DNA of 64,000 nucleotides from assembly GCF_000382885.1 (NCBI RefSeq), contig NZ_CAVK010000039.1, positions 62,001 through 126,000 of the forward strand. The letters are read 5' to 3'. The notes beneath the pieces were generated by a model. That model was not told the DNA's origin and made no database searches. It was given only the letters and a program-made list of their open reading frames with translations. Shown piece by piece: positions 8,380 to 28,989 of the stretch. Both the position numbers and the translations under genes were made by a program. How positions within the stretch are numbered: position 1 is the first letter of the stretch; the number at the start of each line of letters is the position of its first letter. Origin of the DNA: Sphingobium indicum BiD32. Lineage in GTDB: Bacteria > Pseudomonadota > Alphaproteobacteria > Sphingomonadales > Sphingomonadaceae.

Positions 8380-9477
8380 TCATTTTGGTCTACTGTTGGC
8401 CATCAGACGGACCATCAGCGTCTCCAGCCGGGTAGCGTCGATCGTGCGGATAACGGTGGCGGGCTGCTCGCCAAGGCCGGGGCGATAGGGCGCGAACCAG
8501 GAGAGCATGTCCCCATAGCCGGGGCCGAACTGGCTGTTATAATCGACATAGAGCGTCTGCTGGTCGGTCACGAGGGTCGGGTCGAGCCAGACGCCCGCCG
8601 CAATCTCGTCCCACAACGGGAAGCCGGGTTCCAGCGCGGCGATGAAGCTGGCAAGGTCGGGGCTGGCGGATTTTGCCATGCGGTCGAGCAGAGCCTTACT
8701 GCGCTGGGTGCCGGTCGAGGGATCGACCGGGACGACGGTGATCGCCTTCCACGGGCTGCGCGCGACGATGCTGGCGGCTTCGGGGTCGAAACGGATGTTG
8801 AATTCGCGCCGGGGCGTGTTGACGAATTCGCGGGCGAAATCGGCGGCGGCGCGATTGTCGAGCGCTTGCCGGGGATTGAGCGAGCCGCCCATATAGACAA
8901 GCTCCTTCGCCAGGCTGGCAAAGGCAGGATCGAGCCGCTGGGCAAGCGCAAGATTGGTGAGCGGCCCGGCGGCGATGATCGTCACTTCGCCGGGATATTG
9001 GCGGACCATGCGGATCAGGAAATTGGCGGCGATCTCGTCGCGTGCCTTGGTCGTCGGGTTGCCTTCGGGCAAATCGACCGGATCGTTCGGGCCGAAATAG
9101 GGCGGCGTACTTTGCTGGGTCGGTTCGACCCACTGCTTCATCCACGCCCCCTTCCATGTCAGCTTGCCGTAGAGGGCTTCCCAGCGATCGGTCAGGCCTT
9201 CCGAGTTGAGCAGTGGATAGGTTGCACCCTGCACGACCGGCACGTCTGTGCGCCGGGCGATCTCCAGCCCGCGCAGGGCCATGGCGGTGGCGCGATTGGC
9301 CCAGGCGTTGCCCGTTACGGTGGTGATGCCCAGTACGTCGACGTCCGGCGCCTCCAGCAGCATGAGGTGCATGAGCGCAAAGCCCTCATCGTCGATGATG
9401 ACCTTGCGCCGGGGCGTATCGGCATGGGCGAGGCCGATGGTCAGCAGCAGCGCGAGAAGAGTGGCAAGCAGCCTCAT
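8380..9477 (-). CDS. Exported nucleoside hydrolase-like protein
   Basis: A 365-residue protein with a signal peptide (MRLLATLLALLLTIGLAHA). The mature part matches the inosine/uridine-preferring nucleoside hydrolase fold: VDVLGITTVTGN, VPVVQGA, IIAAGPLTNLALA and LVYMGGSLN are visible. The usual calcium-binding start DTDPGxDD is replaced by VIIDDEGFALMHL, so only the first acidic residues remain. The ATG overlaps the adenine deaminase stop (ATGA). Export and location suggest periplasmic release of bases from purine nucleosides. The altered acidic cluster makes catalysis uncertain; a binding role is possible. Confidence 0.8.
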   Translation of the reverse strand: MRLLATLLALLLTIGLAHADTPRRKVIIDDEGFALMHLMLLEAPDVDVLGITTVTGNAWANRATAMALRGLEIARRTDVPVVQGATYPLLNSEGLTDRWEALYGKLTWKGAWMKQWVEPTQQSTPPYFGPNDPVDLPEGNPTTKARDEIAANFLIRMVRQYPGEVTIIAAGPLTNLALAQRLDPAFASLAKELVYMGGSLNPRQALDNRAAADFAREFVNTPRREFNIRFDPEAASIVARSPWKAITVVPVDPSTGTQRSKALLDRMAKSASPDLASFIAALEPGFPLWDEIAAGVWLDPTLVTDQQTLYVDYNSQFGPGYGDMLSWFAPYRPGLGEQPATVIRTIDATRLETLMVRLMANSRPK

Positions 9478-10478
9478 AGATGGGCGTCCAGTCGTTCGAG
9501 ATGGGCGGCGATGGCGTCGGCTGGCAGGAAGGAGCCGATGAAGCTGTTGCGGGCGAGTTGGACGAGTTGCGCCCTGGTGAGGCCGCGCGCCGTCGCCGCT
9601 GCGCGATAATTGTCGGCGATATAGCCGCCGAAATAGGCGGGATCGTCGGAATTGATCGTGGCGCGCAAGCCAAGGTCCAGCATCCGGTCGATCGGATGGT
9701 CGGCCAGATCGGGAACCACGCACAATTTGAGGTTGGAGAGCGGGCAGACGGTGAGCGTCATCCCCTCCCGCACCAGCCGGTCGACCAGCGCATCATCCTC
9801 CAGCGCGCGGTTGCCATGGTCGATGCGATCGACATGGAGCAGGTCGAGCGCCTGATAGACATAGGCGGGTGGTCCTTCCTCGCCGGCATGGGCAGTCAGG
9901 CGGAGGCCTTTGGCGGCGGCGGCAGCGAAAACGCGGGCGAATTTTTCGGGCGGATGGCCGTTTTCGGAGGAATCGAGGCCGACGGCGGCGATGCGGTCGA
10001 GCCAGGGGTCTGCGGTGGCCAGTGTCGCGAACGCCGCCTCTTCGCTCAGATGGCGCAGGAAGGAGAGGATGAGCGCGCTGCTGATGCCATGGCGTGCTTG
10101 TGCATCGGCCATGGCCGAGAGCAGTCCTTCGACGACCGTGGCGAAGGGAATGCCACGATCGGTATGGGTCTGCGGATCGAACATGAGTTCGGCATGGACG
10201 ACGCCGTCCGCCGCCGCCCGATCGAAGTAAGCGGCGGCGAGATCGTGGAAATCTCGGCTGGTCCGCAGCACGTCCGCCCCGGCATAATAAATGTCGAGAA
10301 AATCCTGCAAGTTACCAAAGGCGTAGGCGGCGCGAACATCCTCCACACTGGCATAGGGGATGGCGACGCCATTGCGTTCGGCAAGGGCGAACATCAGTTC
10401 CGGCTCCAGACTGCCTTCGATATGGAGATGGAGTTCGGCCTTGGGCAGCGCGCGGATGAAGCTGTCGAGATCGGTCAT
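9474..10478 (-). CDS. Adenine deaminase (adenosine deaminase superfamily)
   Basis: A 334-residue protein with the zinc ligands of the adenosine deaminase superfamily: AELHLHIEGSLE (His17, His19), TAHAGEEGPP, RIDHGNRA and INSDDPAYFGGY. The segments GLDSSENGHPP, LSNLKLCVVPDLADHP and DDPAYFGGY are typical of the adenine-specific branch (yeast Aah1 and bacterial adenine deaminases) rather than adenosine deaminase. The product would be hypoxanthine, the substrate of the xanthine dehydrogenase encoded upstream. ATG 10478 overlaps the guanine deaminase stop as ATGA. Adenosine deaminase activity cannot be fully excluded. Confidence 0.85.
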   Translation of the reverse strand: MTDLDSFIRALPKAELHLHIEGSLEPELMFALAERNGVAIPYASVEDVRAAYAFGNLQDFLDIYYAGADVLRTSRDFHDLAAAYFDRAAADGVVHAELMFDPQTHTDRGIPFATVVEGLLSAMADAQARHGISSALILSFLRHLSEEAAFATLATADPWLDRIAAVGLDSSENGHPPEKFARVFAAAAAKGLRLTAHAGEEGPPAYVYQALDLLHVDRIDHGNRALEDDALVDRLVREGMTLTVCPLSNLKLCVVPDLADHPIDRMLDLGLRATINSDDPAYFGGYIADNYRAAATARGLTRAQLVQLARNSFIGSFLPADAIAAHLERLDAHL

Positions 10479-11785
10479 GATGCTGTGCCTTGTCGGTCCC
10501 AGGCGCATTGGCCCAAAATATAGGTCCGCGCGATGACGCGGTCGTCGCCGAGGATTTGCAGCGCGAAGAGACGGTCGGCAAGCGTTGCATGTTCCGTGCG
10601 CCGCGCCAGCAGCGGGGTCGCTGCACAGTCGAGCAGGACGAAATCAGCCTCCTGCCCCGGTTCCAGACCGCCGACCCTGTCGTCCATGTGGAGCAGCGCA
10701 GCGCCGCCCGCTGTCGCGAGATAGAGGGCGCGGAAGGGATCGAGCGGATCATGGCGCGACAGGGCCGCCTGATAGGCAAGCCCTGCGGTATGGAGCAGCG
10801 AGAAGGAGGTGCCTGCGCCGACATCGGTGCCAAGGCCGATGCGGACGCCATGGGCGTCGGCCTGCCCAAAATCGAAAAAGCCTGATCCCAGAAACAGGTT
10901 GGAACTGGGGCAGACGGCTATCCCCGCGCCGCTTTGGGCCAGGCGGGCACAGGCCCGGTCGGACAAATGGACGCCATGGGCGAACACCGACCGGTCGCCG
11001 ACCAGACCGAAGCGGTCATAGACGTCGAGATAATCCTGCGCCGCGGGAAAGCGGTCAGCCACGGCGGCACATTCGCGCAGATTTTCGGCCAGATGGGTAT
11101 GCAGCAGCACGTCGGGATGATCGGCCAGCAAGGCGCCTGCAACCTGCAACTGCGCGTCCGACGAGGTGAGGGCAAAGCGGGGTGTCACCGCATAGCCGAG
11201 CCGACCACGGCCACGCCAGCGGCGGATCAGGGCGTCGCTCTCGCTGCGCCCGCTATCGACCGTATCGGCCAGCCCCTCTGGCCCCATATCCATCAATATC
11301 TTGCCCGACAGGATGCGCATGTTCCGGTCCAGCGCCGCGTCGAACAGGGCATCGACCGAATGGGCATGGACGGTCGGGAACACCAGCGCGCTGGTCGTGC
11401 CGTTGCGGAGCAGTTCGTCCAGAAACAGGCTCGCCGTCCGATCCGCATGGGCGCGGTCGGCAAAGGCTTTTTCAGCCGGGAAGATATGGCGATCGAGCCA
11501 GTCGAGCAATTGTTCGCCGTGCGAGGCGATATGGTCCATCTGCGCATAATGGACATGGGCGTCGATGAAGCCAGGGACGATCAGGCCGGGGAGATGCTCG
11601 ATCGCAAGACCGGGAAAGCGGCCTGCCAGTGTCATATAGTCGCCGCGCGCGACAACGATGCCATCCTCTACCACCAGCAACCCATCTGGTTCGTAGCGGA
11701 TGGCATCGGGATGATGATGTGGATCGCGCGAGACCGACAGAAGTTCGCCGCGAAAGCCATGAATCGTCATGCCACCCTTCGTCAT
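10475..11785 (-). CDS. guaD: Guanine deaminase
   Basis: A 436-residue amidohydrolase converting guanine to xanthine. PGFIDAHVHYAQMD carries the HxH motif; HTHLAENLRE, FAHGVHLSD and GLGTDVGAGTSFS are the other metal and active-site segments of guanine deaminases. Length fits the family (about 430-450). The start ATG 11785 has GAGGG just upstream and overlaps the xdhC stop (ATGA); its own stop overlaps the adenine deaminase ATG in the same way. It feeds xanthine to XdhAB. Confidence 0.92.
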   Translation of the reverse strand: MTKGGMTIHGFRGELLSVSRDPHHHPDAIRYEPDGLLVVEDGIVVARGDYMTLAGRFPGLAIEHLPGLIVPGFIDAHVHYAQMDHIASHGEQLLDWLDRHIFPAEKAFADRAHADRTASLFLDELLRNGTTSALVFPTVHAHSVDALFDAALDRNMRILSGKILMDMGPEGLADTVDSGRSESDALIRRWRGRGRLGYAVTPRFALTSSDAQLQVAGALLADHPDVLLHTHLAENLRECAAVADRFPAAQDYLDVYDRFGLVGDRSVFAHGVHLSDRACARLAQSGAGIAVCPSSNLFLGSGFFDFGQADAHGVRIGLGTDVGAGTSFSLLHTAGLAYQAALSRHDPLDPFRALYLATAGGAALLHMDDRVGGLEPGQEADFVLLDCAATPLLARRTEHATLADRLFALQILGDDRVIARTYILGQCAWDRQGTAS

Positions 11786-12702
11786 GCGACCCTCAGTTGC
11801 AGCAGTTGGGCCAGCACGGCGATGGCGATGACATCGGGTTCCTTGCCGGTGACGCCCGGCACCCCGATCGGCGAGGTCAGTCGGGCGCGCGTCTGCGCAT
11901 CGATGCCGTCACGCGCCAACCGTGCATGAAAGCGCGCACCCTTGGTGGCGGAACCGATCAGGCCGATAAAGGCGCAAGGCGGGCGGCTAAGCGCGGCGTG
12001 AGTCAGGCGATAGTCCAGTCCATGATCGTGAGTCAGGATGAGAATGGCGGCCTCATCGGGCGCGTCGGCCACGCATTGCTCAATTGCGGCTTCGGGCACG
12101 ACGGCAACGCCATCTATCGTTTCAAACACCGGGCGGGTGTCGAACCAGGACAGGCGCAAGGGCAGATTGGCAGCGTGGCGGGCGATCGCCTGCCCGACAT
12201 GGCCGGCCCCGAACAGGTAAACAGGCCTTTGATACTGGCCGATGATTTCGGCGAGGCTGTCACCCGCGCGAGGACGATCGCCGCGCGCCGAAAGGCTGGA
12301 CGGCAGGGCATGATCGTTGACATGCCGTTCCATCCGGTCGGGCAGGAAGGTCGAGACGAGGATGCGCTCGTCGGCGGCATCGGCCAGCCAGTCCATCGCG
12401 GCGGGATCGAGATGTTCAATGAGCAGCCGCACCCGCCCGCCGCAACATTGGCCCAGCAGCGGTCCCAACGGATAATCCTGCACCCGCCAATGGCCCGGCG
12501 GCAGCGCGAGGATGGCGCGGGCCTGTTCGACCGCGCGATATTCCAGCTGACCACCACCGATCGTGCCATGGAGCGTGTCCGCCGTGACGAGCATCCGCGT
12601 CCCCGCCCCGCGCGGCGCGGAGCCTTCGCTCGCGACGATGCTGATCATCGCGCCCGGCGTCCTGCCTGCAACGCTGCGCAGCCAGCCCAGCCACTCGCTC
12701 AT
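11782..12702 (-). CDS. xdhC: Xanthine dehydrogenase accessory protein XdhC
   Basis: A 306-residue protein with two parts: an N-terminal XdhC/CoxI domain containing GTIGGGQLEY and the QCCGGRVRLL cysteines, and a C-terminal Rossmann-like domain (VYLFGAGHVGQAIA, LILTHDHGLDY, FIGLIGSATK). XdhC binds molybdenum cofactor, supports its sulfuration and delivers it to XdhB. The start ATG 12702 overlaps the xdhB stop (ATGA); the much longer open frame upstream lies inside xdhB and is not coding. It is needed for active XdhAB in the same operon. Confidence 0.93.
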   Translation of the reverse strand: MSEWLGWLRSVAGRTPGAMISIVASEGSAPRGAGTRMLVTADTLHGTIGGGQLEYRAVEQARAILALPPGHWRVQDYPLGPLLGQCCGGRVRLLIEHLDPAAMDWLADAADERILVSTFLPDRMERHVNDHALPSSLSARGDRPRAGDSLAEIIGQYQRPVYLFGAGHVGQAIARHAANLPLRLSWFDTRPVFETIDGVAVVPEAAIEQCVADAPDEAAILILTHDHGLDYRLTHAALSRPPCAFIGLIGSATKGARFHARLARDGIDAQTRARLTSPIGVPGVTGKEPDVIAIAVLAQLLQLRVA

Positions 12703-15000
12703 CGCGCGCGATGCTCCGTCACCGCGCGCAATATGCGTTCGGGGGTGGCAGGGGCGTCGAGGCGCGGGAGTGCGCGGACGTCCGGCGCGACCGCGGCGAC
12801 GGCGCGGGTCAGCGCGGAAAAGACTGAGATAGCGAGCATGAAGGGGGGTTCGCCGACCGCCTTGGACCGGTTGATGGTCGGTTCGACATTCTCGCCATCC
12901 CACAGGCTGATCGTCATATGGGCGGGCCGGTCCGACGCGGTCGGGATTTTGTAGGTGGCGGGCGAATGGGTCAGGAAGTGGCCCTGATCGTCGAACACCA
13001 GTTCCTCGGTGGTCAGCCACCCCTGCCCCTGGATGAAGCCGCCCTCAATCTGGCCGATGTCGATCTGCCGATTGAGCGAGCGGCCGACATCGTGGAGGAT
13101 GTCGACGGCCAGCACCTTATGCTCGCCGGTCAGCGTGTCGATCGCGACTTCCGATACGGCTGCGCCATAGGCGAAATAATAGAAAGGGCGGCCCTGATGC
13201 GCTGCGCGATCATAGGCGATGCCGGGGGTTGCATAATAGCCGGTGGCCGCGAGCGAGATGCGGCCGATATGCGCCTTGCGGCAAAGCTGGGCGAAGGTCA
13301 GCCGTTCTGCCCCGGCGATGATGCCTTCGGAGGTGAAATGGACTTCCGTGTCGGCGCAGCCAAAAGTGCGGACAAGGAAGCCGGTCAGCCGGTCGCGGAT
13401 CGTCATCGCCGCGTTGTAGGCGGCCATGCCGTTGAGGTCCGCGCCCGACGAGGCGGCAGTGGCGGACGTATTGGGCACCTTGTCGGTGCGGGTGGCGGTG
13501 ATCCGCACTTGGTCGATCGGCACGGCGAACACATCGGCGACGACCTGCGCCACCTTGATATACAGCCCCTGCCCCATTTCCGTGCCGCCATGGTTGATCT
13601 GGATCGACCCGTCGGCATAGACCAGTACCAGCGCCCCGGCCTGGTTCAAATGGGTGGTGGTGAAGCTGATCCCGAATTTGACCGGGGTGAGGGCGATGCC
13701 CTTCTTGATGATCGGGCTGGTCGCGTTAAAGGCGTCGATCGCGGCGATGCGGGCGTCATAGCGGGCGTCGGCGCGCAGCCGGGCGATGAGTTGGGGCGCG
13801 ATATTGTCCGCGATCGTCATGCCATAGGGCGCGACATCGCGACCGGGGCCGTAGAGATTGAGGCAACGGACCGCCAGCGGATCATGGCCCAGATGCGCGG
13901 CAATGTCGTCCATCACCCGCTCGATCGCCAGCATCCCCTGCGGGCCGCCAAAACCGCGAAAGGCGGTGTCGGACACGGTGTTGGTTTTCAGCCGCTCGGA
14001 CAGGATTTCGACGTCGGGTAGCCAGTAGCAATTGTCGGCATGGAACATCGCCCGGTCGTTGATCGCCGGGGACAGATCGACCGTGGCACCGCAGCGGGAG
14101 GCAAGGCGCAGCTGGAGAGCCAGCACATGGCCTGAAGCATCGAAGCCGACATCATAGGAGACGCGGAAGGCATGGCGCTTGCCGGTCATCACCATGTCAT
14201 CGTCGCGGTCGCAGCGGAATTTCGCGGGACGTCCGGTCTTGTCCGCCACCAGCGCGGCGGCGGCGGCGAACAGGGCCGCCTGCGTTTCCTTGCCGCCAAA
14301 GGCGCCGCCCATGCGCCGCACCTCCACCGTCACGTCGGCGGAATTGCGATGGAGCATATGGGCGATCAGATGCTGGACTTCGCTGGGATGCTGGGTGGAA
14401 CTGAGCACATGGATCTGGCCATCTTCGCCCGGCGTTGCGACCGCGACTTGCCCCTCCAGATAGAAATGATCCTGCCCGCCCATGTCGAAACCGCCGGTCA
14501 GGCGGTGGGGCGCGATAGCCAGCGCGGCACCGGCGTCACCGCGCGCCATGCGCTGGGTCGGTTCGATCACTGAATTGGCCGCCTGTGCTGCCTCGATCGT
14601 CAGGCAGGCAGGGAGCGTTTCATAATCGATCTTGCCGAGCCGCGCGGCCTTGCGTGCAGCGCGCTGGCTCGTGGCGGCGACCAGGAAGATGGCTTGTCCG
14701 ACGCAGATGACTTCGCCATCGGCCAACAGCCGGTCATCGCCGGCGACGGGACTGACATCGTTCGCGCCGGGGATGTCGGCGGCGGTAAAGACGTGGACCA
14801 CGCCTTCGGCCGCACGGACGGCCGACAAGTCCATGGCGCGGATGCGGGCATGGGCATGGGCGCTCTGGCCGAAAGCCAGATGGAGCATGTCGGCCGGTTC
14901 CGGCCCGTCATCGGCATAGCGGGCCGCGCCCGTGACATGGAGGCGCGCGCTGTCATGCGGGTGCGAGGGCTTGGGCAGCACACGCCATGCGGGATCGCGA

Positions 15001-15008
<8 letters not shown>
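12699..15008 (-). CDS. xdhB: Xanthine dehydrogenase large subunit (molybdopterin binding)
   Basis: A 769-residue molybdenum hydroxylase subunit that oxidises hypoxanthine and xanthine to urate. Seen are GGAFGGKETQ, FRGFGGPQGM, the TEMGQGLYIKV molybdopterin segment and the C-terminal KAVGEPPFML containing the catalytic glutamate. The size matches XdhB of the two-subunit bacterial enzyme. ATG 15008 (MADRDPAW) overlaps the xdhA stop by 8 bases; the open frame running to 15281 is the antiparallel remainder inside xdhA. It works as a complex with XdhA and gets cofactor through XdhC. Confidence 0.95.
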
Positions 15009-16428
<1,420 letters not shown>

Positions 16429-16429
16429 C

Positions 16430-16762
16430 TCAGCTCCCCCGATAGGTCGAATAGCCATAGGGCGAGACGAGCAAGGGGACGTGATAATGGGCTTCGTCCG
16501 CGATGCCGAAATCGAGGACGATAATGTCGAGGAAGGGCGGATCGGGCAGGTCGACGCCCCGCCCGGCGAAATAGGGTGCAACCGCAAATTCCAGCCGGTA
16601 GCGGCCCTGCGCGAGCGCAGGCAGGCCGGGGCAGCGGCCATCCGCGTCGGTAGCAGCAGCGAAGAGCATCGCCCCGTCGCCGTCGAGCAGGCGGAGCGCG
16701 ACCCCGGCGGCGGGGCAGCCATGGCTGGTGTCGAGGACATGGGTGGACAGGCTGGCCATCAT
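16430..16762 (-). CDS. uraH: 5-hydroxyisourate hydrolase (transthyretin-like)
   Basis: A 110-residue protein of the transthyretin-related family. It starts MMASLSTHVLDTSHGCPA, where the histidine of STHVLD is an active-site residue, and ends with HYHVPLLVSPYGYSTYRGS, whose final YRGS is the family signature. It hydrolyses 5-hydroxyisourate to OHCU. ATG 16762 overlaps the stop of the FAD urate hydroxylase-like gene (ATGA). It is placed between the presumed urate hydroxylase and xdhA, in reaction order. Confidence 0.94.
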   Translation of the reverse strand: MMASLSTHVLDTSHGCPAAGVALRLLDGDGAMLFAAATDADGRCPGLPALAQGRYRLEFAVAPYFAGRGVDLPDPPFLDIIVLDFGIADEAHYHVPLLVSPYGYSTYRGS

Positions 16763-18186
16763 GCCGCCTCCTCTTTCGGTTTTGGCCATTGCCCGACAAA
16801 TTCCGCCTCGTCATAGGCGAGCAGATCGGCGACCAGCGCGGTGCGATCATCGAGGAAAAGCTGGTCGGTGACACCGCGCAGCAGCCGCGGCAGCGCGGTT
16901 TGCAGGCCCGACAAAGCGGAGGCGGAGAGGCCCAGGCTGATGAGCGCGGAATAGTTGAAGGCGAACAGGCCGTGCAGCGCATCGCCCTGCCCTTCCTCGC
17001 GCGGGGTCAGCTCAAAGCCGTCACCGAGATAGGGATGCGCGTCGATCAGCGCGTTCGAGCTACCCGGCGGTGGCGTGTAGCGATCGGCCCAGCGGGCGAT
17101 GCTTGATGCCAGGGCGGCAAGTTCCGGGCGCAGGCCGGGGTCGCTCAGCAGGCCGGTGGACAGGACCACAAAGTCGAACATGAAATTGCCCACGGGCGTC
17201 GTCACATGGACGCCGCCGTCGCGTTGTTCCACCGCCGTCCAGGGCGCGCCCAGATGCAGCGCGAAGCCGGGCCAGCTCGCCGCGCGATCGAACGTATCGT
17301 TGGTGGGCGGCTGGTTGTGACCGAGGAAGCTGGCCATCACCGCATATTTGTCCGCATCTGACAACGCAGGATAGCGGCCGGTGAAGCCGACCTGCTCCAT
17401 GAAGCGGATCGGGTTGATGCGCGACAGTAGTGGGCGGCGAATGAAAACATGCGCCTCGCCCACACCAAGGCCGAGCGCGGCATTGGCATTGTCGAAGGCC
17501 GACGCGCCCCCGCCCAATATGCCGATGCGCTTTCCCCTGAGCCCGGCGAAGTCAATCGGTTCGCTGGTATGGGCATAAAGGCTGCGTGGCAAAGCCTCGC
17601 GGATCATGGCGGGGGTATGCCATTCGCCGCCGCCCTGTATGCCGGTGGCCAGCACCACCTTGCGCGCCAGCAGCGGCGGCTGGCCGTCGAGATGCAGGCG
17701 GTGGAGGCCATCGCCCAGCGGCTCGATGAGGGTGAGTTTCGTGTCGTTGCGCACCGGCAGGTTTAAAACACGGCGATACCAGCGCAGATAGGCCATCCAG
17801 TCGCCGCGCGCGATCTTGTCGACCGCCTCCCAGCCCGCTGCGCCATGCTGCGCTTCCCACCAGGCGCGATAGCTGAGCGCTGGAATGCCGAAATCGATGG
17901 GGTTGAGGTTCTTGGGCGTGCGCAGGGTGATCATCCGCGCATAAGTGTCCCACGGCCCTTCCAGCCCGGCGGGGTTCTCATCGATGACAAGAATGTTGGA
18001 AACCCGTTCGCGCAGCAGGCCGAAGGCGGCGGCCAGACCGCTCTGCCCGCCGCCGACGATGACGACATCATGGACATGACCCTGTGAATGGGCGCGCGGC
18101 CGGGTCCAGTCGGTGCCGCCATGGCCGATCAGGACGAGTTGGCGGGCGAGATCGGATTCCAGCGCGGGCAGGCCGATGACGCTCAT
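16759..18186 (-). CDS. hpyO: FAD/NAD(P)-dependent urate hydroxylase, HpyO-like (probable)
   Basis: A 475-residue flavoprotein with an N-terminal dinucleotide-binding site VVIVGGGQSG (residues 41-50), a second one at IGILGGGASAFDNA, and an ATG-type segment VVLATGIQGGG. The architecture is that of two-dinucleotide-binding flavin monooxygenases, not the PHBH-type HpxO and not cofactor-free uricase. It sits between OHCU decarboxylase and HIU hydrolase genes with ATGA overlaps on both sides, exactly where a urate-oxidising enzyme is expected, and no other urate oxidase is in the window. The HpyO family (described from Xanthomonas) is the known flavin enzyme of this type. Assignment rests on architecture plus context. 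Confidence 0.75.
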   Translation of the reverse strand: MSVIGLPALESDLARQLVLIGHGGTDWTRPRAHSQGHVHDVVIVGGGQSGLAAAFGLLRERVSNILVIDENPAGLEGPWDTYARMITLRTPKNLNPIDFGIPALSYRAWWEAQHGAAGWEAVDKIARGDWMAYLRWYRRVLNLPVRNDTKLTLIEPLGDGLHRLHLDGQPPLLARKVVLATGIQGGGEWHTPAMIREALPRSLYAHTSEPIDFAGLRGKRIGILGGGASAFDNANAALGLGVGEAHVFIRRPLLSRINPIRFMEQVGFTGRYPALSDADKYAVMASFLGHNQPPTNDTFDRAASWPGFALHLGAPWTAVEQRDGGVHVTTPVGNFMFDFVVLSTGLLSDPGLRPELAALASSIARWADRYTPPPGSSNALIDAHPYLGDGFELTPREEGQGDALHGLFAFNYSALISLGLSASALSGLQTALPRLLRGVTDQLFLDDRTALVADLLAYDEAEFVGQWPKPKEEAA

Positions 18187-18623
18187 GCCATGTCCCCCAA
18201 CCGCAACCGGACAATCTCGCCGATCTGGGCGAGTGCGGTTGCGATCTCTTCGTCGCGACCATGCCCCAGGCGCTGTTCCATGGCGGCCAATATACCCGCC
18301 TTGTCGGTCAATCGCACGCAGATGATGAAGGGAAAGTCGAAGCGTTCCCGGTAAGCGGCGTTGAGGGCGTGGAAGCGGTCATATTCCTGTTGGGTCAGGC
18401 GGTCCAGACCGGCCGAGGCCTGCTCCGCCGCCGACGCATCGGTCAGCGTCCTGTCGATCGCCGCCTTGCCCGCCAGTTCGGGGTGGGCGCGGATCAGCGC
18501 CAATTGCTCGTCCGGAGTGGCGTCATGGAGGACGGCCATCAGATCGGCATGACGGTCACCCGATGCGGGCCGTGCGTCGGCGCGCGCCTCGACCCAGGGA
18601 CTATGTTCAAACAGCGCAGTCAA
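18183..18623 (-). CDS. uraD: OHCU decarboxylase
   Basis: A 146-residue helical protein. It has IRAHPELAGKAA (His47, the catalytic histidine region) and the conserved NAAYRERFDFPFIICVR block. It decarboxylates 2-oxo-4-hydroxy-4-carboxy-5-ureidoimidazoline to S-allantoin. The start is a TTG at 18623, supported by GGAGGG nine bases upstream and a TTGA overlap with the hpxZ stop; there is no upstream ATG in frame. Its stop is coupled by ATGA to the next gene. Confidence 0.93.
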   Translation of the reverse strand: MTALFEHSPWVEARADARPASGDRHADLMAVLHDATPDEQLALIRAHPELAGKAAIDRTLTDASAAEQASAGLDRLTQQEYDRFHALNAAYRERFDFPFIICVRLTDKAGILAAMEQRLGHGRDEEIATALAQIGEIVRLRLGDMA

Positions 18624-19000
18624 TGCGTGTTGCCCTCCAGGCTGACATGGGCGGAGACGACCTTCCAGCCATCGGCGAACTTGACCCAGCTCTGGGTCTG
18701 GCGGCCGCGCCGGTCGCTATTTTCGCGGAAAAATTCAGCGTCGGCGGTGGCAAAGCTGTCGCCATACACCGTGATGGAGACCTTCCCCAGCTTGCGTTGG
18801 GGGGAGCCGCCGCGACCTTTACGAAATGCGCGGATTTCCTCGATGCCGTACAATACTTCGCCCACGCCATAGCGGTTGGTGGTCGGCGCATCGTGGAACA
18901 GCGCGTCCATAGCAGGCACATCGTCGGCCATCAGCGCGCGCTCATATTCCATGAAGGCGGCGGTCATTTCGGCGAGCAGGATCGGATCATCTATGGTCAT
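18620..19000 (-). CDS. hpxZ: HpxZ/AtzH-like protein of oxalurate catabolism
   Basis: A 126-residue SnoaL/DUF3225-like alpha+beta protein. TNRYGVGEVLYGIEEIRAFR, KVSITVYGDSFATADAEF and RQTQSWVKFADGWKVVSAHV are characteristic of HpxZ. In Klebsiella the hpxWXYZ genes are linked to oxalurate/oxamate use, and AtzH is a related amidase partner in cyanuric acid degradation. Here it lies between allantoinase and OHCU decarboxylase with ATGA overlaps on both sides. The biochemical role of HpxZ itself is poorly defined. Confidence 0.88.
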   Translation of the reverse strand: MTIDDPILLAEMTAAFMEYERALMADDVPAMDALFHDAPTTNRYGVGEVLYGIEEIRAFRKGRGGSPQRKLGKVSITVYGDSFATADAEFFRENSDRRGRQTQSWVKFADGWKVVSAHVSLEGNTH

Positions 19001-19866
19001 GCGGGGTGGACCTCCATCCAGTGGCGGGCAATGTCGATGCGGCGGGCGACCCAGGCGTCGCCGCTGGCCATGACATGGTCGAGGAAGCGGGCAAGGGCCG
19101 CGGCGCGGCCGGGACGCCCGGCGATGCGGCCATGCAGGCCGACCGACATCATCCGGCCACCTTCCGCGCGGAGTTGGTCGAACGTGTCGCGCAGGTAGCG
19201 GAAGAACTGCTCGCCTTCGGTAAAACCGTTGAGCGCGACGATCTTCATGTCGTTGGCGTCGAGCGTGTAGGGGACGATCAGCTGCCCTTCTGCATAATAA
19301 GGCAGGTCATCCGCATAGCTGTCGGCATCATAAACGAAGCCACCTTCTTCGCGCACCAGTCGCGCCGTGTTGGGGGAAGTGCGGCCCTGATACCAGCCGA
19401 GCGGACGCGCGCCGGTCAGGCGGGTATGGAGGGCGATGGCCTCCGCGATATGGGCGCGCTCCATTTCTTCGGGCACATATTGATAGTCGATCCATTTGAG
19501 GCCGTGGCTGGCAATTTCCCAATCAGCCGCGAGCATGGCTTCCACGGCGGCGGGGTTCATCGCCATGGCATTGGCGACGCCGAATATGGTGACGGGCAGG
19601 CCGCGCTCGGTGAACAGGCGGTGGAGGCGCCAGAAACCGGCGCGACTGCCATATTCGTAGAGGCTTTCCATCGCCATGGCGCGCGCGGGATGGCTGGCGG
19701 CACCGACCATTTCGGACAGGAACGCTTCGGACCCGGCATCACCGTTCAGAACGCTATTTTCCGCGCCTTCCTCATAATTGACGACGAACTGGACAGCGAT
19801 GCGCGCACCACGGGGCCAGCGCGGGTCGGGTGGTGTCTGGCCATAGCCGATAAGGTCGCGGCTCAT
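18997..19866 (-). CDS. puuE: Allantoinase, PuuE type (polysaccharide deacetylase-like)
   Basis: A 289-residue protein of the metal-independent allantoinase family, hydrolysing allantoin to allantoate. NYEEGAENSVLNGD, EYGSRAGFWR, SHGLKWIDYQ and LGWYQGRTSPNTARLV are strong family signatures. ATG 19866 has GGAGAGG upstream; the longer frame reads through a repeat element and is rejected. The gene stop overlaps hpxZ (ATGA). A 160-base gap with a palindromic repeat separates it from the aminotransferase gene, the only sizeable gap inside the purine operon. Confidence 0.93.
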   Translation of the reverse strand: MSRDLIGYGQTPPDPRWPRGARIAVQFVVNYEEGAENSVLNGDAGSEAFLSEMVGAASHPARAMAMESLYEYGSRAGFWRLHRLFTERGLPVTIFGVANAMAMNPAAVEAMLAADWEIASHGLKWIDYQYVPEEMERAHIAEAIALHTRLTGARPLGWYQGRTSPNTARLVREEGGFVYDADSYADDLPYYAEGQLIVPYTLDANDMKIVALNGFTEGEQFFRYLRDTFDQLRAEGGRMMSVGLHGRIAGRPGRAAALARFLDHVMASGDAWVARRIDIARHWMEVHPA

Positions 19867-19884
19867 GAATGCCTCTCCGGGGCA

Positions 19885-20009
19885 AATCCTCCCCTGCAAG
19901 GAGCGGGGGACCGCCAGCGAAGCTGGTGGTGGAGGGGTGTCACGCTCTCGATAGCTCGACCCCCCTCCGTCTGGCCTACGGCCAGCCACCTCCCCTGCGA
20001 GGGGAGGAT
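19885..20009. repeat. Palindromic intergenic repeat of sphingomonad type
   Basis: The outer arms TCCTCCCCTGCAAG and CTGCGAGGGGAGGA are inverted. Inside are two hairpins: ACCGCCAGC-GAA-GCTGGTGGT (about 19910-19930) and CTGGCC-TAC-GGCCAG (about 19971-19984). GGAGGGGTG and the facing CCCCCCTCC extend the pairing. The layout (CCTCCCC arm, CCAGC hairpin, arm) resembles small dispersed repeats common between genes in sphingomonad genomes. It fills most of the gap between puuE and the aminotransferase gene and could affect mRNA stability or attenuate the downstream half of the operon. Confidence 0.75.
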
Positions 20010-20029: not shown

Positions 20030-21265
20030 TCATCCCCATGCTTCCAGCGCCGCCGGGACCGCTGCGCCTGCGGGCAGGAGGAAGCCTTCGCGCAACAGGC
20101 AGGCCTCCAAGGCTGCCAATGTCAGCAACACTTTATGCTTCATCGCATTATAGCCCATCGCGCCGATGCGCCAGATGCGGCCTTGCAGGGGACCGAAGGC
20201 GGTGCCGATCTCAATCTCGAAATGGTCGCGCATGGCGGCGCGGACCCGGTCATTATCGACGCCTTGCGGGATGAACACGCCGGTCACATTGGTCATGCGA
20301 TGGGCATCATCGCCAAAGAGGGTGAGGCCCATGGCGCGCAGCCCGGCGCTCATCGCCCGGCCGGCGGCGGCGTGGCGGGCATAGCGCGCCTCCAGCCCCT
20401 CCCCCAGCATCACCCGCGCACATTCCCGCGCGGCGTAGAGCATGGAGGTCGCTTCGGTGTGGTGGTTCAGGCGCTTGTCCGACCAATAGTCCATGATCAT
20501 GGCGAGGTCGAAATAGTTGGAAGCAATGCGCGGCCCCGCGCCGTCGATACTGTCGGCGCTGCGGATGCCTGCTTCGGTATGGCGGCGGGCGAAAATATGG
20601 TCGGCGGCGCGATCCGAAATGGTGATCGGCGCTGAGCCGGACGGACCACCGAGGCATTTTTGCAAGCCGCCAGTGACGACATCGACACCCCAGCGGTCGG
20701 CGGCGATTGCCATGCCGCCGATGGTCGCGGTCGCATCGACATAGCATAAAGCGCCAGCCGCGCGGCACAGGTCGCCAAGGCCGTCGAGCGGCTGGGCCAT
20801 GGTGGTCGATGTATCGCCATGGACGCAGGCGACGATTTTGGGACCGGTACGTTCGATGGCGGCGGCGATCGCCTCCATCGGCACGATTTCGCCCCAGGGC
20901 GCATCGACGGTTTCGATGACCGCGCCGATGCGGGTGAGGATTTCGCCGAGCAACAGACCGAAACGCCCGAAATTGATCACCAGCACCGTGTCGCCCGGCG
21001 CGACCAGCGAGACCAGGGCCGCCTCTATCCCCGCGCGCGCGGTGCCGTCGATCAGCATCGTCCAGGGGTTTTGCGTGCCAAAGATCGGGCGATAGAGCGC
21101 CATGACCTGGTTCATATAGCCGGTCATTTCAGGATCGAACTGGCCCAGCAGATCGGCGGACATGGCGCGCAGCACGCGGGGATGGGCGTTGACCGGTCCC
21201 GGTCCCATCAACAGACGCTGCGGCGGGTCGATTTCGCCAAAGAGCAGGGGATCAAGCGGGGTCAA
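20030..21265 (-). CDS. pucG: (S)-ureidoglycine-glyoxylate aminotransferase-like, class V
   Basis: A 411-residue fold-type I PLP enzyme of the alanine-glyoxylate/serine-pyruvate group. LLMGPGPVNAHPRVL is the conserved start, CVHGDTSTT and YVDATATIGG the cofactor site, and TGGLQKCLGGPSG carries Lys203. In purine catabolism this family transfers the amino group of ureidoglycine to glyoxylate, giving oxalurate and glycine. The start is probably a TTG at 21265 with GGGAG five bases upstream, overlapping the allantoate amidohydrolase gene by 14 bases; no suitable ATG exists. The HpxW, HpxZ and AtzE-like genes nearby fit an oxalurate-producing route. A serine or alanine-glyoxylate aminotransferase is the alternative. 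Confidence 0.85.
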   Translation of the reverse strand: MTPLDPLLFGEIDPPQRLLMGPGPVNAHPRVLRAMSADLLGQFDPEMTGYMNQVMALYRPIFGTQNPWTMLIDGTARAGIEAALVSLVAPGDTVLVINFGRFGLLLGEILTRIGAVIETVDAPWGEIVPMEAIAAAIERTGPKIVACVHGDTSTTMAQPLDGLGDLCRAAGALCYVDATATIGGMAIAADRWGVDVVTGGLQKCLGGPSGSAPITISDRAADHIFARRHTEAGIRSADSIDGAGPRIASNYFDLAMIMDYWSDKRLNHHTEATSMLYAARECARVMLGEGLEARYARHAAAGRAMSAGLRAMGLTLFGDDAHRMTNVTGVFIPQGVDNDRVRAAMRDHFEIEIGTAFGPLQGRIWRIGAMGYNAMKHKVLLTLAALEACLLREGFLLPAGAAVPAALEAWG

Positions 21266-22487
21266 ATGTCGCTCCCAATCGGTCGATAAAGCCAAGCATG
21301 ACCTGTAATGCCACATCGGCATCGGCAGGGTCGACATGTTCGGCGGGATTATGGCTGATGCCATGCTTGCAGCGGATGAAGAGCATGGCAGTGGGACAGA
21401 GCGCGGCCATCACCATGGCGTCATGCCCGGCGCCCGACACGAGGCGGCGGATGGGATAACCCGCATCGGCGGTGGCGGCGTCCATCAGGTCCATCAGCGC
21501 TGGGTCGCACGGGCTGGCGGGAAGATCGTGGACGCGCTGGATTGCGTAATTCAGATCGCGGTGATTGGCGATTGAGGCCAGCGCATCGAGGATCGCCTCC
21601 GCCGCTCGGTCGCGGCGCGCTTCTTCGCCGGATCGTATGTCGATGGTGAAGCGGACTTCGCCTGCGATAACATTGGGCGCGCCGGGCAGCGCCTCGATCC
21701 GTCCCACGGTGGCGACCAGATCGGAGGCGTCGGCGCGGGCGATCTTTTCGATTGCGAGGATCATCTCGGCCGCGCCCGCCACAGCGTCGCGGCGCAGCGG
21801 CATGGAACTCGTGCCAGCATGACCGGCCATGCCCTTGATGACGGCCTGATAGCGCAATTGGGCGGCGATGCCGGTGACGGTGCCGACGGCCAGCCCGTCT
21901 GCCTCCAGCACCGGTCCCTGTTCGATATGGGCTTCGAGATAGGCAAGGGTCGTGCCGGGCCCGCGGGCGGCGGAGAGATAGTCGGACAGGCTGACACCGG
22001 CCTGCGAGAGCGACACGCCGTCAGCGTCGGCAATGTCGAGCGCCTCGGGGGCCAGCGTCCCCGCGACCGCGCGGCTGGTGAGCATGGCGGCGGGGAAGCG
22101 CGATCCTTCCTCGTCCCCGAAGGCGATGACTTCGATCGGGAATGGCAGGCGCTTGCCGCTCTGGTGCAGCGCCGCCACGGCCTCCAAGCCCAGCATGATG
22201 CCGAGCGGCCCGTCATAGCGCCCGCCGTCGCGCACGCTGTCGAGATGGCTGCCGATCAACAGGGCCGGTGCGCCGGGTTGGGTGCCGTCATAGCGGCCGA
22301 TCAGGTTGGCGGCGGCATCGCGGTACACGGCCATGCCCGCCTGCGCCATCCATCCAGCCAGTGCGTCCTGCGCGGCGGTATAAGACGGGTTCAGATAGCC
22401 GCGATAAAGGCCGCCTTCCATGTCGCTATAGGGCGCGACGCCCAGTGCGTCGCAGCGCGCGACCGCTCTTGCGCCGCCACTCACCAT
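21252..22487 (-). CDS. allC: Allantoate amidohydrolase (M20 family)
   Basis: A 411-residue M20-type metallohydrolase of the allantoate amidohydrolase/N-carbamoyl amino acid hydrolase group. Metal ligands are seen in GSHLDSVRDGGRYDGPLG, FGDEEGSRF, EAHIEQGPVLE and KHGISHNPAEHV. Context between allantoinase and the aminotransferase supports allantoate as substrate, giving ureidoglycine, CO2 and ammonia. The ATG at 22487 overlaps the hpxW-like stop. A carbamoyl amino acid hydrolase would look the same in sequence, so the assignment uses gene order. Confidence 0.86.
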   Translation of the reverse strand: MVSGGARAVARCDALGVAPYSDMEGGLYRGYLNPSYTAAQDALAGWMAQAGMAVYRDAAANLIGRYDGTQPGAPALLIGSHLDSVRDGGRYDGPLGIMLGLEAVAALHQSGKRLPFPIEVIAFGDEEGSRFPAAMLTSRAVAGTLAPEALDIADADGVSLSQAGVSLSDYLSAARGPGTTLAYLEAHIEQGPVLEADGLAVGTVTGIAAQLRYQAVIKGMAGHAGTSSMPLRRDAVAGAAEMILAIEKIARADASDLVATVGRIEALPGAPNVIAGEVRFTIDIRSGEEARRDRAAEAILDALASIANHRDLNYAIQRVHDLPASPCDPALMDLMDAATADAGYPIRRLVSGAGHDAMVMAALCPTAMLFIRCKHGISHNPAEHVDPADADVALQVMLGFIDRLGATFDPA

Positions 22488-24067
22488 GTTGCCACCTGCC
22501 CGTCGCTGCGCGGATCGGTCGCGCCGTCGAGGCGGCCATCGGCGTGGCGAACGATCGCGCCGGCATGGCCCATCATCGCCGTCAGCGGTCCGACCCGCTC
22601 GACATCATGGCCTGCCGCTGCAAGGTCGGCGTAGAGCGCATCGTCGAAGCCGTCCTCCAGCTTCAATGTCGTGCTGTCCTCCCCCCATGTCCGCCCCAGC
22701 AGCCAGCGCGGGGCGCTGATCGCCTGCTGGAGATCGACACCGAAACGGACATAGCGGGTGAAGAGCGCGGCCTGGGTCTGCGGCTGGCCCTCCCCGCCCA
22801 TCGTGCCATAGGCCATGAGCCGCCCGTCATCGAAGCGGGCAAGCGCGGGATTGAGCGTGTGGAAGGGCTTGCGGCCGGGCCGAAGCGCGTTCCAGCCGTC
22901 TGCCGCCAGCCGAAAGCTGCTGCCCCGGTTCTGCCAGGTGATGCCGGTCTGCGGCAGCACCAGCCCCGCTCCGAACTCGAAATAGGTGGACTGGATCGCG
23001 CTGACCACCCGCCCCTCCCGGTCGGCGGCGGCAAACCAGCAAGTGTCGCCCTGCGCCGACGGGCGGGGCCAGGGCAAGGCGCGGGCCGGGTCGATTGAGG
23101 CGGCGATGGCGTCCAGCGCCGCCGGATCATCGAGCAGCCCCTGATAGTCGAAATCGTGAAAGGCGGGATCGCCAACATGGGTGTCGCGCAGCAGGAAGGC
23201 CTGCTTGGTGGCTTCGACAAGACCATGGATATGGTCGAAGCCGTCTGCCCGATCAGCGCGCAGCCGATCGAACAAGGCGAGGATCATCAGCGAGGCGAAG
23301 CCCTGCGTCGGTGGGGCGCTGTTATACAGGTCGATGCCGGTGATGCGGGTCGTCAGCGGCGTGGGCCGGGTGGCCTGATGCGCGGCGAGATCGTCGCGGC
23401 TGACCGGGCTACCCAGCGCGGCAAGGTCCGCCGCCACCAGATCAGCCAGTGCGCCGGTGTAGAAATCGGCGGGGCCATGGGTGGCGATCGTCCGCAGCGT
23501 CGCGGCAAGCGCAGGCTGGCGCAGCAGATCGCCTTCGCGTAGCGGGCGGCCCTCCGGCTCGAAGATCGCGGCATAGGCGCCGGGCTGGACCCGCAACTCG
23601 CCGCCCTTGGCGGCCGCGATGGCCGCGCCGCCGCTGGTGACGGCCACGCCGTTTTCGGCATGGTGGATAGCGTCGCGCAGCAGCCGGGACAAAGGCAGAT
23701 TGCCCCCGCCGCTTTCGAGCATCGCCGCCCAGCCCGACACTGTGCCTGCCACCGTATTGGCCGCCAACGGTCCCCGTGTCGGCACAGCGCCCAGCCCGGC
23801 ATAGAGTGCAAGATCGGCTTTAGCCGCCGCGCCGCCGCAGCCATGGATGCTATGGATCGCACCATCCGGCTGCGCGACCAGCCAGAAACTGTCACCGCCG
23901 ATCCCGGTCATATGGGGATAGACGACGGCCAGCGTAGCCGCGACCGCGACGGCGGCTTCGACCGCATTGCCGCCGTCCTTCAGCACGTCGCAACCCGCCT
24001 GCGCCGCCAGCCAATGGGGCGCGGTCACCATGCCGTTCGTGCCGCTGATGGTGGAAAGCGCCATCAT
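22481..24067 (-). CDS. hpxW: HpxW-like oxamate amidohydrolase (gamma-glutamyltransferase family)
   Basis: A 528-residue N-terminal nucleophile proenzyme. The expected autocleavage site is in QGDTCWFAAADREG, making Thr342 the nucleophile, and GTMGGEGQPQTQAALFTR and PRWLLGRTWG follow in the small-subunit half. FGAGLVLPQTGITWQNRG resembles HpxW rather than glutathione-cleaving transferases. No signal peptide is visible, so a cytoplasmic role fits. HpxW hydrolyses oxamate to oxalate and ammonia. Start ATG 24067 or 24064; one base separates it from the nucleosidase gene. It fits with hpxZ and the AtzE-like amidase in the same operon. Confidence 0.82.
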   Translation of the reverse strand: MMALSTISGTNGMVTAPHWLAAQAGCDVLKDGGNAVEAAVAVAATLAVVYPHMTGIGGDSFWLVAQPDGAIHSIHGCGGAAAKADLALYAGLGAVPTRGPLAANTVAGTVSGWAAMLESGGGNLPLSRLLRDAIHHAENGVAVTSGGAAIAAAKGGELRVQPGAYAAIFEPEGRPLREGDLLRQPALAATLRTIATHGPADFYTGALADLVAADLAALGSPVSRDDLAAHQATRPTPLTTRITGIDLYNSAPPTQGFASLMILALFDRLRADRADGFDHIHGLVEATKQAFLLRDTHVGDPAFHDFDYQGLLDDPAALDAIAASIDPARALPWPRPSAQGDTCWFAAADREGRVVSAIQSTYFEFGAGLVLPQTGITWQNRGSSFRLAADGWNALRPGRKPFHTLNPALARFDDGRLMAYGTMGGEGQPQTQAALFTRYVRFGVDLQQAISAPRWLLGRTWGEDSTTLKLEDGFDDALYADLAAAGHDVERVGPLTAMMGHAGAIVRHADGRLDGATDPRSDGQVATW

Positions 24068-24068
24068 C

Positions 24069-24986
24069 CTAATCCGGCAGCGCCGCGACGAAGGCGCGGA
24101 CGACGTCGGCACTGTTGACCGAGGCCAGCGCCATGAAGGTGTTCATCTGGTTCGCACCCGCGTCACCCCCGGCCAGGTCGGACAGGCTGCGGAACACGAT
24201 GGCCGGGACTTGATTGGCATAGGCAACCTGCACCACCGCCGCGCTTTCCATGTCCAGCACGCGCGCTTTCCATGCCTTGGCCAGATAATCGCGAAATTCC
24301 GCATTGTCGGCATAGACCCCGGCGCTGACGCCGGTGCCGCCGACGACGAATTTGGGGTCATGGGCGAGGCAGTTGGCGGCGGTCGCCTGTCCATCGACGC
24401 AGCGGCGCAGCGTCACGCCGACGGCAACCTTGCGCGCGAGCGCCAGCAGCGCGGGATCGACTGCCTGCCGGTAATGACGGCGGGGCGTTTCCGTGGCGTT
24501 GCCAAGCCGCACCCCGCGCGGGAACATCATGCCGAACGGCGATGGCGCTTCGGCATCGACGGGTTCGGGGACGACCCAGCCCTGCGGCGTCTGGCGCGCG
24601 AACGACACTTCCAGATATTGCGCCCAATCCTCCGGCACGACAACGTCGCCGATCGACAAAGCGGGATCGACGCCGCCCGCAATGCCGGAAAAGACGATTC
24701 GCTTCACGATGAAGCGATCCAGAACCAATTGGGTATTCATCGCGGCGTTGACCATGCTGACGCCGCTCTGCATCAACAGCACTGGCTTTCCCGCCATCGT
24801 GCCGGTCAGCATCGTCAGGCCGTTGACCTGATGCGTCCTGGGCCGGGCGATGGAATGGGCGAGCGCATCCCATTCGGGCGCGAAGGCGGTCATGACCACG
24901 GTGCGCGGGGTGCGGTCGAGCGGCTTCGCCTGCGCCGAAACTGGCAGCAGCAAGGCGCACAGGGCAAGGCAGAGGGACCGGATCAT
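24069..24986 (-). CDS. Exported purine nucleosidase/phosphorylase-like protein
   Basis: A 305-residue protein with a signal peptide (MIRSLCLALCALLLPVSAQA) and the PNP/UDP phosphorylase fold. IVFSGIAGGVDPALSIGDVVV, VLDMESAAVVQVAYA and FRSLSDLAGG match the MTA/SAH nucleosidase subgroup, with the catalytic glutamate in MESAA and aspartate in SLSD. Export to the periplasm sets it apart from cytosolic Mtn. In a purine operon it likely splits purine nucleosides so that the AzgA-like permease, whose gene overlaps by ATGA, can import the base. The substrate is inferred. Confidence 0.83.
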   Translation of the reverse strand: MIRSLCLALCALLLPVSAQAKPLDRTPRTVVMTAFAPEWDALAHSIARPRTHQVNGLTMLTGTMAGKPVLLMQSGVSMVNAAMNTQLVLDRFIVKRIVFSGIAGGVDPALSIGDVVVPEDWAQYLEVSFARQTPQGWVVPEPVDAEAPSPFGMMFPRGVRLGNATETPRRHYRQAVDPALLALARKVAVGVTLRRCVDGQATAANCLAHDPKFVVGGTGVSAGVYADNAEFRDYLAKAWKARVLDMESAAVVQVAYANQVPAIVFRSLSDLAGGDAGANQMNTFMALASVNSADVVRAFVAALPD

Positions 24987-26332
24987 GCCGCGCTCATCCA
25001 GACGAAGCGAACGACGAACAAAGCGGCGAGCAGAAAGAGGAACCAGTCGGCCCTGATCGCGGTGCCACACAGCAGCTTCAATATGGCGTGCGCCGTGATG
25101 CCGAAGGCCAGGCCATTGGCGATCGAGAAGGTCAGCGGGATCATCGCCACGGTCAGGAAGGCGGGGATCGCCGAGAGCGGGTCTTCCCACTCTATTTCCG
25201 TGAGCGGCAACAGCATCAGCCCGCCCACGATGATGAGCGCAGGCGCGGTCGCGGCCAGCGGGACGATCTGCGCATAGGGGGCGACGAACATGGTGGCGAG
25301 GAACAGGATGCCGGTCACAACCGCCGTCAGCCCGGTGCGCCCGCCTGCCTGCACGCCTGCTGCGCTTTCGACATAGGAGGTGACCGTGCTGGTGCCCGCG
25401 ACCGATCCGACGATGGTGGCAGCGGCGTCGGTGATGAGGATGCGGTTGAGACCGGGGATGCGCCCCGCCTTGTCCATCAGCCCCGCCCGCTTGGTGACGG
25501 CAACCAGCGTGCCGATATTGTCGAACAGGTCGACGAACAGAAAGACGAAGAGAATTTCGAGCAAGCCGAGGCCATGGCTGCCGGTCAGGCCGAATACGCC
25601 CGACAGGTCCAGTTTGAAGGCGGTGCCGGTCAAGGCGTCGAGGCTGTAGGGTTCGGGGCTGATGACGACCTGGCCGAACAGCCAGCCGACCAAAGTCGTC
25701 GCGACGATGCCGATCAGCATCGCGCCGCGTATGTTCCAGACGCTCAGCACGCCGATGACGAGCATTCCAAACAGGGCGAGCGCTGCGCCGGGTGCCTTCA
25801 AATCGCCCAGCCCCACGAAGGTGGCGGGGTTGGCGACGACGATGCCTGCATTTTTGAGGCCGATGAAGCCGATGAACAGGCCGATCCCGCCCGCTACCGC
25901 GGCGAACAGATGCATCGGGATGGCCGCGACGATCATCTGGCGCACGCCGGTCAGCGTCAGGATCAGGAAGGCTATGCCGGAGATGAACACGCATCCCAGC
26001 GCGATCGGCCAGGGAATGCCCATTTGCTGGACGACGGTGAAGCTGAAATAGGCGTTGAGACCCATGCCCGGCGCCAGCGCGAGCGGCGTGTTGGCGACCA
26101 GCCCCATCATGATCGACCCAAAGGCAGCGGCAAAACAGGTCGCTGCTGCCACCGCCGCGATCGGCATCCCCGCCTGCCCCAGGATCGCGGGATTGACCAG
26201 CACGATATAGGCCATGGTCAGAAAGGTGGTGAAGCCCGCCAATATCTCGGTCCGCGCTGTCGTGCCCCGTGCCGACAGGCTGAAATAGCGTTCGAGCCGC
26301 CCCGCTCCCGGCTGCATCGCCACGTCCGTCAT
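24983..26332 (-). CDS. AzgA-type purine base permease
   Basis: A 449-residue inner membrane transporter with about 12-14 hydrophobic segments. GFTTFLTMAYIVLVNPAIL, APGMGLNAYFSF and FVFLFVDLFDNIGTLVAV are signatures of the AzgA-like family (adenine, guanine and hypoxanthine uptake with protons). The start ATG 26332 overlaps the amidase stop as TAATG. It supplies substrates to the adenine and guanine deaminases and XdhAB encoded downstream. Confidence 0.93.
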   Translation of the reverse strand: MTDVAMQPGAGRLERYFSLSARGTTARTEILAGFTTFLTMAYIVLVNPAILGQAGMPIAAVAAATCFAAAFGSIMMGLVANTPLALAPGMGLNAYFSFTVVQQMGIPWPIALGCVFISGIAFLILTLTGVRQMIVAAIPMHLFAAVAGGIGLFIGFIGLKNAGIVVANPATFVGLGDLKAPGAALALFGMLVIGVLSVWNIRGAMLIGIVATTLVGWLFGQVVISPEPYSLDALTGTAFKLDLSGVFGLTGSHGLGLLEILFVFLFVDLFDNIGTLVAVTKRAGLMDKAGRIPGLNRILITDAAATIVGSVAGTSTVTSYVESAAGVQAGGRTGLTAVVTGILFLATMFVAPYAQIVPLAATAPALIIVGGLMLLPLTEIEWEDPLSAIPAFLTVAMIPLTFSIANGLAFGITAHAILKLLCGTAIRADWFLFLLAALFVVRFVWMSAA

Positions 26333-28799: not shown

Positions 28800-28989
28800 G
28801 GCCCCCTTTAGGCCGATCCTGCCCTACCGATCCAATAGAATGACTTGCACGGATCGTTGCAAAAAAGCGCTTACCTGCACTCTGGCCAAGGACAGGTCAT
28901 CGCCGGGCCAGTCATGGTCCGTCCGACAGGCCTGACCGTCCGGGCCGATCCGGCGCGATCTGGATAGCGAATGAGAGAGCCGCGCCCAA
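28800..28989 (-). promoter_or_regulatory. Leader and probable promoter of the purine operon
   Basis: A 190-base gap upstream of the first operon gene. On the minus strand TTGCAA (28863-28858), an 18-base spacer and TCTATT (28839-28834) form a weak promoter candidate. GTTGCAAAAAA (28856-28866, plus strand) repeats the 11-mer found in front of the LysR gene. Further TTGCA/TGCA half-sites lie at 28845-28849 and around 28876. No riboswitch-like structure was recognised. Regulator binding is inferred. Confidence 0.45.

Follow-up and report, generated by a model that had tools for sequence, protein, structure and literature searches.

Four solutions to urate oxidation have been published, namely Uox, HpxO, HpyO and PuuD, as set out in a 2015 survey (PMC4562309). 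According to the same survey, Uox (PucL) is a cofactor-free T-fold enzyme that makes H2O2; HpyO, reported from Xanthomonas, relies on the cosubstrate NAD(P)H and the cofactor FAD and occurs in a 'limited number of bacteria'; and Klebsiella HpxO shares with HpyO the reaction, FAD and NAD(P)H (PMC4562309). Uox and PuuD (COG3748) act at the same pathway step as HpyO; PuuD differs from it in being an integral membrane protein that carries a cytochrome c and lacks flavin. HpxO is a class A flavoprotein with a PHBH-like plan. HpyO of Xanthomonas, a FAD-dependent urate hydroxylase, was reportedly the subject of Michiel et al. in 2012. With HpyO already published in that year, the protein considered here is a further HpyO, ordinary but well supported. 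An earlier note on this DNA had called HpyO a rarely noted third solution to urate oxidation; it is indeed a published solution, but one of four. A literature search combining urate oxidase, Xanthomonas, purine and Sphingobium found no paper.

The window, i.e., the whole stretch of 64,000 nucleotides from Sphingobium indicum BiD32 that was analysed, contains a purine operon in which all genes, from the HpxW-like gene to the adenosine deaminase family gene (24112 to 9474), lie on the minus strand. Judged from its sequence, one of these genes very probably encodes HpyO, which would convert urate to 5-hydroxyisourate with NAD(P)H and FAD as part of purine breakdown. This assignment is made because of full-length similarity, synteny, co-occurrence with UraD and the predicted fold. 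The genes of the operon are as follows, in the order of transcription.

22481..24112, minus strand: gamma-glutamyltransferase-like gene, probably HpxW (oxamate amidohydrolase); PF01019; TIGR00066 328.4 bits, under the cut-off of 357.85
21252..22487, minus strand: allantoate amidohydrolase; NF006775 584.4 bits, cut-off 479
20030..21364, minus strand: class-V aminotransferase; PF00266; NCBIfam matches all under cut-off
18997..19989, minus strand: puuE, allantoinase; TIGR03212 498.3 bits, cut-off 424.6; homology from about residue 43 of the ORF
18620..19000, minus strand: hpxZ-like (AtzH-like) gene; NF033625 149.8 bits, cut-off 135
18183..18623, minus strand: uraD, OHCU decarboxylase; TTG start; TIGR03164 171.6 bits, cut-off 96.25; PF09349
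16759..18186, minus strand: hpyO, predicted FAD/NAD(P)H-dependent urate hydroxylase; 475 aa; similarity, gene order, co-occurrence, fold
16430..16762, minus strand: uraH, 5-hydroxyisourate hydrolase; TIGR02962 108.4 bits, cut-off 87.45; PF00576
15001..16428, minus strand: xdhA, xanthine dehydrogenase small subunit; TIGR02963 565.5 bits, cut-off 467; GTG start estimated
12699..15281, minus strand: xdhB, xanthine dehydrogenase molybdopterin subunit; TIGR02965 1189.7 bits, cut-off 849.5
11782..13020, minus strand: xdhC family protein; PF13478, PF02625; homology from about residue 118 of the ORF
10475..11785, minus strand: guanine deaminase; TIGR02967 521.5 bits, cut-off 375.4
9474..10508, minus strand: adenosine deaminase family; NF006850 530.3 bits, cut-off 419

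The hpyO frame is intact, with an ATG start, 475 codons for amino acids and no internal stops. Its 5′ end overlaps the 3′ end of uraD by four nucleotides (ATGA), and its 3′ end overlaps the start of uraH in the same way, when uraH is taken to begin at the ATG at 16762; this start was picked by the overlap with hpyO, and the uraH ORF itself extends to 16789. Two dinucleotide-binding motifs, GGGQSG (residues 45-50) and GGGASA (residues 225-230), together with NAD_binding_9 and Pyr_redox_3, provide the FAD- and NAD(P)-binding signatures of the protein, and the further Pfam matches above cut-off are DAO, Pyr_redox_2 and Lys_Orn_oxgnase. The earlier note had described a flavoprotein with two dinucleotide-binding sites, encoded between an OHCU decarboxylase and a HIU hydrolase and coupled on both sides to these next two enzymes of the pathway. 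The frame, the motifs and the models matched by its neighbours bear out this description, and the two ATGA overlaps confirm the coupling.

Several names in the remaining operon depend on context. The class-V aminotransferase is probably a PucG-like (S)-ureidoglycine-glyoxylate aminotransferase, a name taken from its operon position. The top PDB sequence match of the gamma-glutamyltransferase-like protein is 5hft (E 4.9e-85), which we take to be Klebsiella HpxW, oxamate amidohydrolase; this gene suggests an oxalurate/oxamate branch in the window operon. The true start of xdhB is probably near 15008, given that homology begins only from about residue 106 of the ORF. Upstream of the operon lies an AtzE-family amidase (26332-27666, minus strand; NF006631 548.8 bits, cut-off 461), and the HpxZ/AtzH-like gene is inside the operon; no small HpxX/AtzG-like partner of the amidase was seen by eye among ORFs of at least 40 aa in 26200-29000. 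Elsewhere in the window, a gene at 33589-34914 (plus strand) appears by eye to encode the large subunit of a Rieske-type aromatic-ring oxygenase, with an AraC-type regulator upstream, and is apparently unrelated to the purine operon.

Similarity to the Xanthomonas proteins was assessed with homologues from several species of that genus, which stood in for the characterised HpyO sequence. The window protein is 64.6% identical to the X. arboricola protein (L088) over 475 aa, i.e., over its full length. A scan of named genomes with alignment A1 returned at least 593 stretches, of which at least 568 encode a relative; the analysis used the 80 best. These best 80 of at least 568 relatives include six Xanthomonas loci, X. 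arboricola among them, whose proteins are 64-65% identical to the window protein along their full length and carry both dinucleotide motifs, and whose genes run allC-pucG-puuE-hpxZ-uraD-hpyO-uraH, so that the homologue occupies the slot between uraD and uraH as in the window. The window differs from Xanthomonas in its alphaproteobacterial host and in the xdhA-xdhB-xdhC genes that follow on the same strand; none of these three turned up in the flanking DNA fetched for the six Xanthomonas loci. Among the matches listed, the closest named locus is that of Sphingobium sp. AS12, with a protein 99% identical to window HpyO. Taken with the co-occurrence of UraD, the lack of Uox or an over-cut-off HpxO and the PuuD replacement described below, this similarity supports the earlier note's sequence-based proposal of an HpyO-type urate hydroxylase.

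No NCBIfam model exceeds its cut-off for the window protein, the X. arboricola protein or one Bacillus protein of the HpyO clade, so that the name HpyO is not backed by a curated model, a point against the assignment. The window protein has two NCBIfam matches, both far under cut-off. The ArsO-type monooxygenase model (NF040505), which scored 45.1 bits (cut-off 425) and covered residues 39-230 only, was rejected as a candidate.

A set of 84 proteins was assembled from the 80 best loci (of at least 568), the window, two further copies and a weaker relative (303 bits) from one genome of the family, G147. Unchanged copies of the motif NQPPTNDTF (residues 291-299 of the window protein) occur in 79 of the 84, and four (L062, L063, L098 and L112) carry it with one substitution; it is absent only from the G147 protein. 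In a quick tree, the 80 loci, the window and the two further copies fall on one side and G147 forms a very long outgroup branch. The window clusters with Sphingobium, the six Xanthomonas rows make up a starred clade, and the sphingomonad rows L063, L069, L080 and L105 as well as the second copies of G005 and G009 lie outside the main sphingomonad group.

An AlphaFold model of window HpyO, built with 34 sequences, has a mean pLDDT of 87.8 and a pTM of 0.89. Its best structural match is the ornithine hydroxylase PvdA (Foldseek E 2.7e-18; Z 28.0, rmsd 3.3, 373 aligned residues, 19% identity). After it come flavin monooxygenases of other kinds, bacillithiol disulfide reductases at Z 25-26 and thioredoxin reductases, which reach a Z of 23.5. 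The predicted model thus has the two-dinucleotide-domain fold of the N-hydroxylase-type class B flavin monooxygenases, which differs from the PHBH-type plan seen in HpxO. PvdA, SidA and KtzI share the overall fold and both dinucleotide domains with the model (Z 23.5-28.0), and differ from window HpyO in their substrates and in sequence (14-19% identity). Since reductases also have this fold (Z about 19-26), it cannot by itself tell a monooxygenase from a reductase.

By analogy with published HpyO and the predicted fold, NAD(P)H would reduce the FAD of HpyO, and O2 would react with the reduced FAD to give a C4a-hydroperoxyflavin. The distal oxygen would then be transferred to C5 of urate, yielding 5-hydroxyisourate and water, and no H2O2 would be formed, unlike with Uox. 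UraH would hydrolyse and UraD decarboxylate the product to give (S)-allantoin, and the remaining operon would serve purine deamination, xanthine oxidation and the route down to allantoate and beyond.

The distribution of HpyO follows that of UraD closely. Within the genus (37 genomes, including that of the window), UraD is present in 11 and full-length HpyO (at least 626 bits) in the same 11 (Fisher p 1.2e-9). Across 199 genomes of the family, nine have UraD; HpyO (at least 778 bits) is found in eight of these nine and in none of the 190 without UraD (Fisher p 1.7e-13), and in all eight it adjoins uraD within about 140 bases. Both p values overstate independence, given that the genomes are related and the two sets have the window's genome and at least one other in common. 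Counted against the HpyO reading, nine of 24 further genomes searched, from the same order, have UraD and none of the 24 has full-length HpyO; therefore, UraD is not dependent on HpyO outside the genus. One genome, G009, has two copies each of UraD and HpyO. Its contig C20 (L020, L025) carries the second uraD-hpyO pair, with an HpyO 65% identical, and about 20 kb from that pair lies a frame of 156 aa that matches HpyO residues 9-83 at 39% identity.

The main alternatives concern what the window protein does and which protein of the genome oxidises urate. It is very unlikely that the window gene lies in the operon by chance and that its product, a flavin monooxygenase of this superfamily, has another substrate, as is probably the case for the G147 paralogue. 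In favour of this are the Pfam matches of the window protein, which are generic only, and the existence of that superfamily member itself, which is 36% identical to HpyO and stands apart from urate genes in a genome without UraD (C1:45376-46719; L118 5344-6816). By eye, the neighbours of the G147 gene resemble an ABC transporter, a nitroreductase and an acyl-CoA-dehydrogenase-like protein, and its product perhaps has another substrate. The co-occurrence with UraD in both genus and family argues against such a reading of the window gene, as does the NQPPTNDTF motif, which sets G147 apart from the other 83 proteins; moreover, apart from HpyO, the searches of the window's own genome gave no known urate oxidase of full length. 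The earlier note had stated that the window holds neither a cofactor-free uricase nor a PHBH-like HpxO, and the search was widened to the assembled genome. The uricase model PF01014 has no match there, with B. subtilis matching as a positive control, nor in any of the 199 family genomes. The HpxO model NF033623, whose cut-off is 500 bits, has five weak matches in the window's genome, at 28.3-34.6 bits. These mean little: the model also gave hits in 12 of the 14 control genomes, reached its cut-off in none of them, and so had no positive control.

That the window protein is itself HpxO is scarcely credible, even though the two share reaction and cofactors. When it was searched against the HpxO profile, as the earlier note had proposed, no NF033623 match was obtained at the hpyO locus; Klebsiella HpxO belongs to a different family. 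The 14 PDB sequence matches of the window protein (E up to 0.1) include no entry that bears the name HpxO or urate hydroxylase, and in fold the protein comes closest to N-hydroxylases and flavoproteins related to them. The name HpxO is also missing from the Foldseek and VIA rows shown, which proves nothing alone. A third reading, that a short Urate_ox_N (PuuD-like) protein oxidises urate and HpyO is accessory, is extremely unlikely. It draws on a 197-aa protein of the genome that exceeds the PF06181 cut-off (51.8 against 26.9 bits), a model that the HpyO product does not match. The match of the 197-aa protein covers only positions 172-236 of 295, compared with 3-292 in the full-length PuuD of another genome of the family (G223, see below), and no near-full-length Urate_ox_N protein of the PuuD kind was found in the window's genome. 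Furthermore, partial PF06181 matches occur in 68 of the 199 family genomes and do not track the pathway, given that three of the nine UraD genomes have them and so do 65 of the 190 that lack UraD. No purine genes were seen by eye in the 1774 bases around the short gene (L026 62-655, contig C136), which has a superoxide dismutase-like neighbour by eye. HpyO is therefore linked to uraH and uraD in a genome with no other urate oxidase found save this partial homologue; as the assembly is 93.41% complete, the absence is not absolute.

The one UraD genome without HpyO among the 199 of the family, G223, has a full-length PuuD-type urate oxidase instead. Its operon (L119) is 69-83% identical per gene to the window operon over the allC to xdhC part; hpyO is missing from between uraD and uraH, which abut, and PuuD lies between uraH and xdhA (L119 4006-5960). 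The G223 PuuD is a 397-aa frame (431 bits) that combines a full-length Urate_ox_N domain with a C-terminal CxxCH. A FastTree phylogeny of pucG, puuE and uraD, comprising 38 rows, places G223 within the operons that bear HpyO, with local supports enclosing it, from the inside outward, of 0.93, 0.78, 0.95, 0.95, 0.93, 0.62, 0.90 and 0.62. The rows have more than 55% identity in all three genes (38 of 84 sources) and, except for L119, are loci selected for HpyO, so that the nesting is partly a sampling effect. The direction of the change between HpyO and PuuD appears uncertain on rows chosen in this way, and more PuuD-bearing operons are needed.

Probably, two unrelated enzymes, soluble NAD(P)H-burning HpyO and the membrane cytochrome c enzyme PuuD, have been exchanged in one conserved sphingomonad operon, and flavin-dependent urate hydroxylation has arisen twice, as class A HpxO and as HpyO with its N-hydroxylase-like fold. 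The sphingomonad operon allows two kinds of urate oxidase, one consuming NAD(P)H and the other a membrane cytochrome enzyme, to be compared in hosts that are close relatives. Mildly new are this change from HpyO to PuuD within a single syntenic operon, the close association of HpyO with UraD across the family, and the spread of HpyO into Bacillota.

Bacillota account for 42 of the best 80 loci (of at least 568 relatives). Among the other 38, uraD and uraH flank hpyO in 37, and L058 has uraH only. For the Bacillota loci, both genes were found in the fetched flanks of six of 42 and neither in 36, another point against the HpyO reading, in a scan that used the window's own proteins as queries and in which six of the 42 loci were shorter than 13 kb. 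When 40 HpyO-bearing genomes were searched (38 Bacillota and two xanthomonads), UraD was present in all 40. Uox was also present in ten, all Bacillota, which counts against the HpyO reading, and absent from the other 28 of the 38 Bacillota genomes. With sphingomonads and many Bacillota included, the HpyO clade is more widespread than the 2015 survey indicated (PMC4562309). NCBIfam leaves these genes unnamed, as judged from the three proteins tested, yet they would account for urate oxidation where a genome has UraD and lacks Uox. In eight of the ten Uox-bearing Bacillota, UraD and Uox are encoded in one frame of 509-525 aa.
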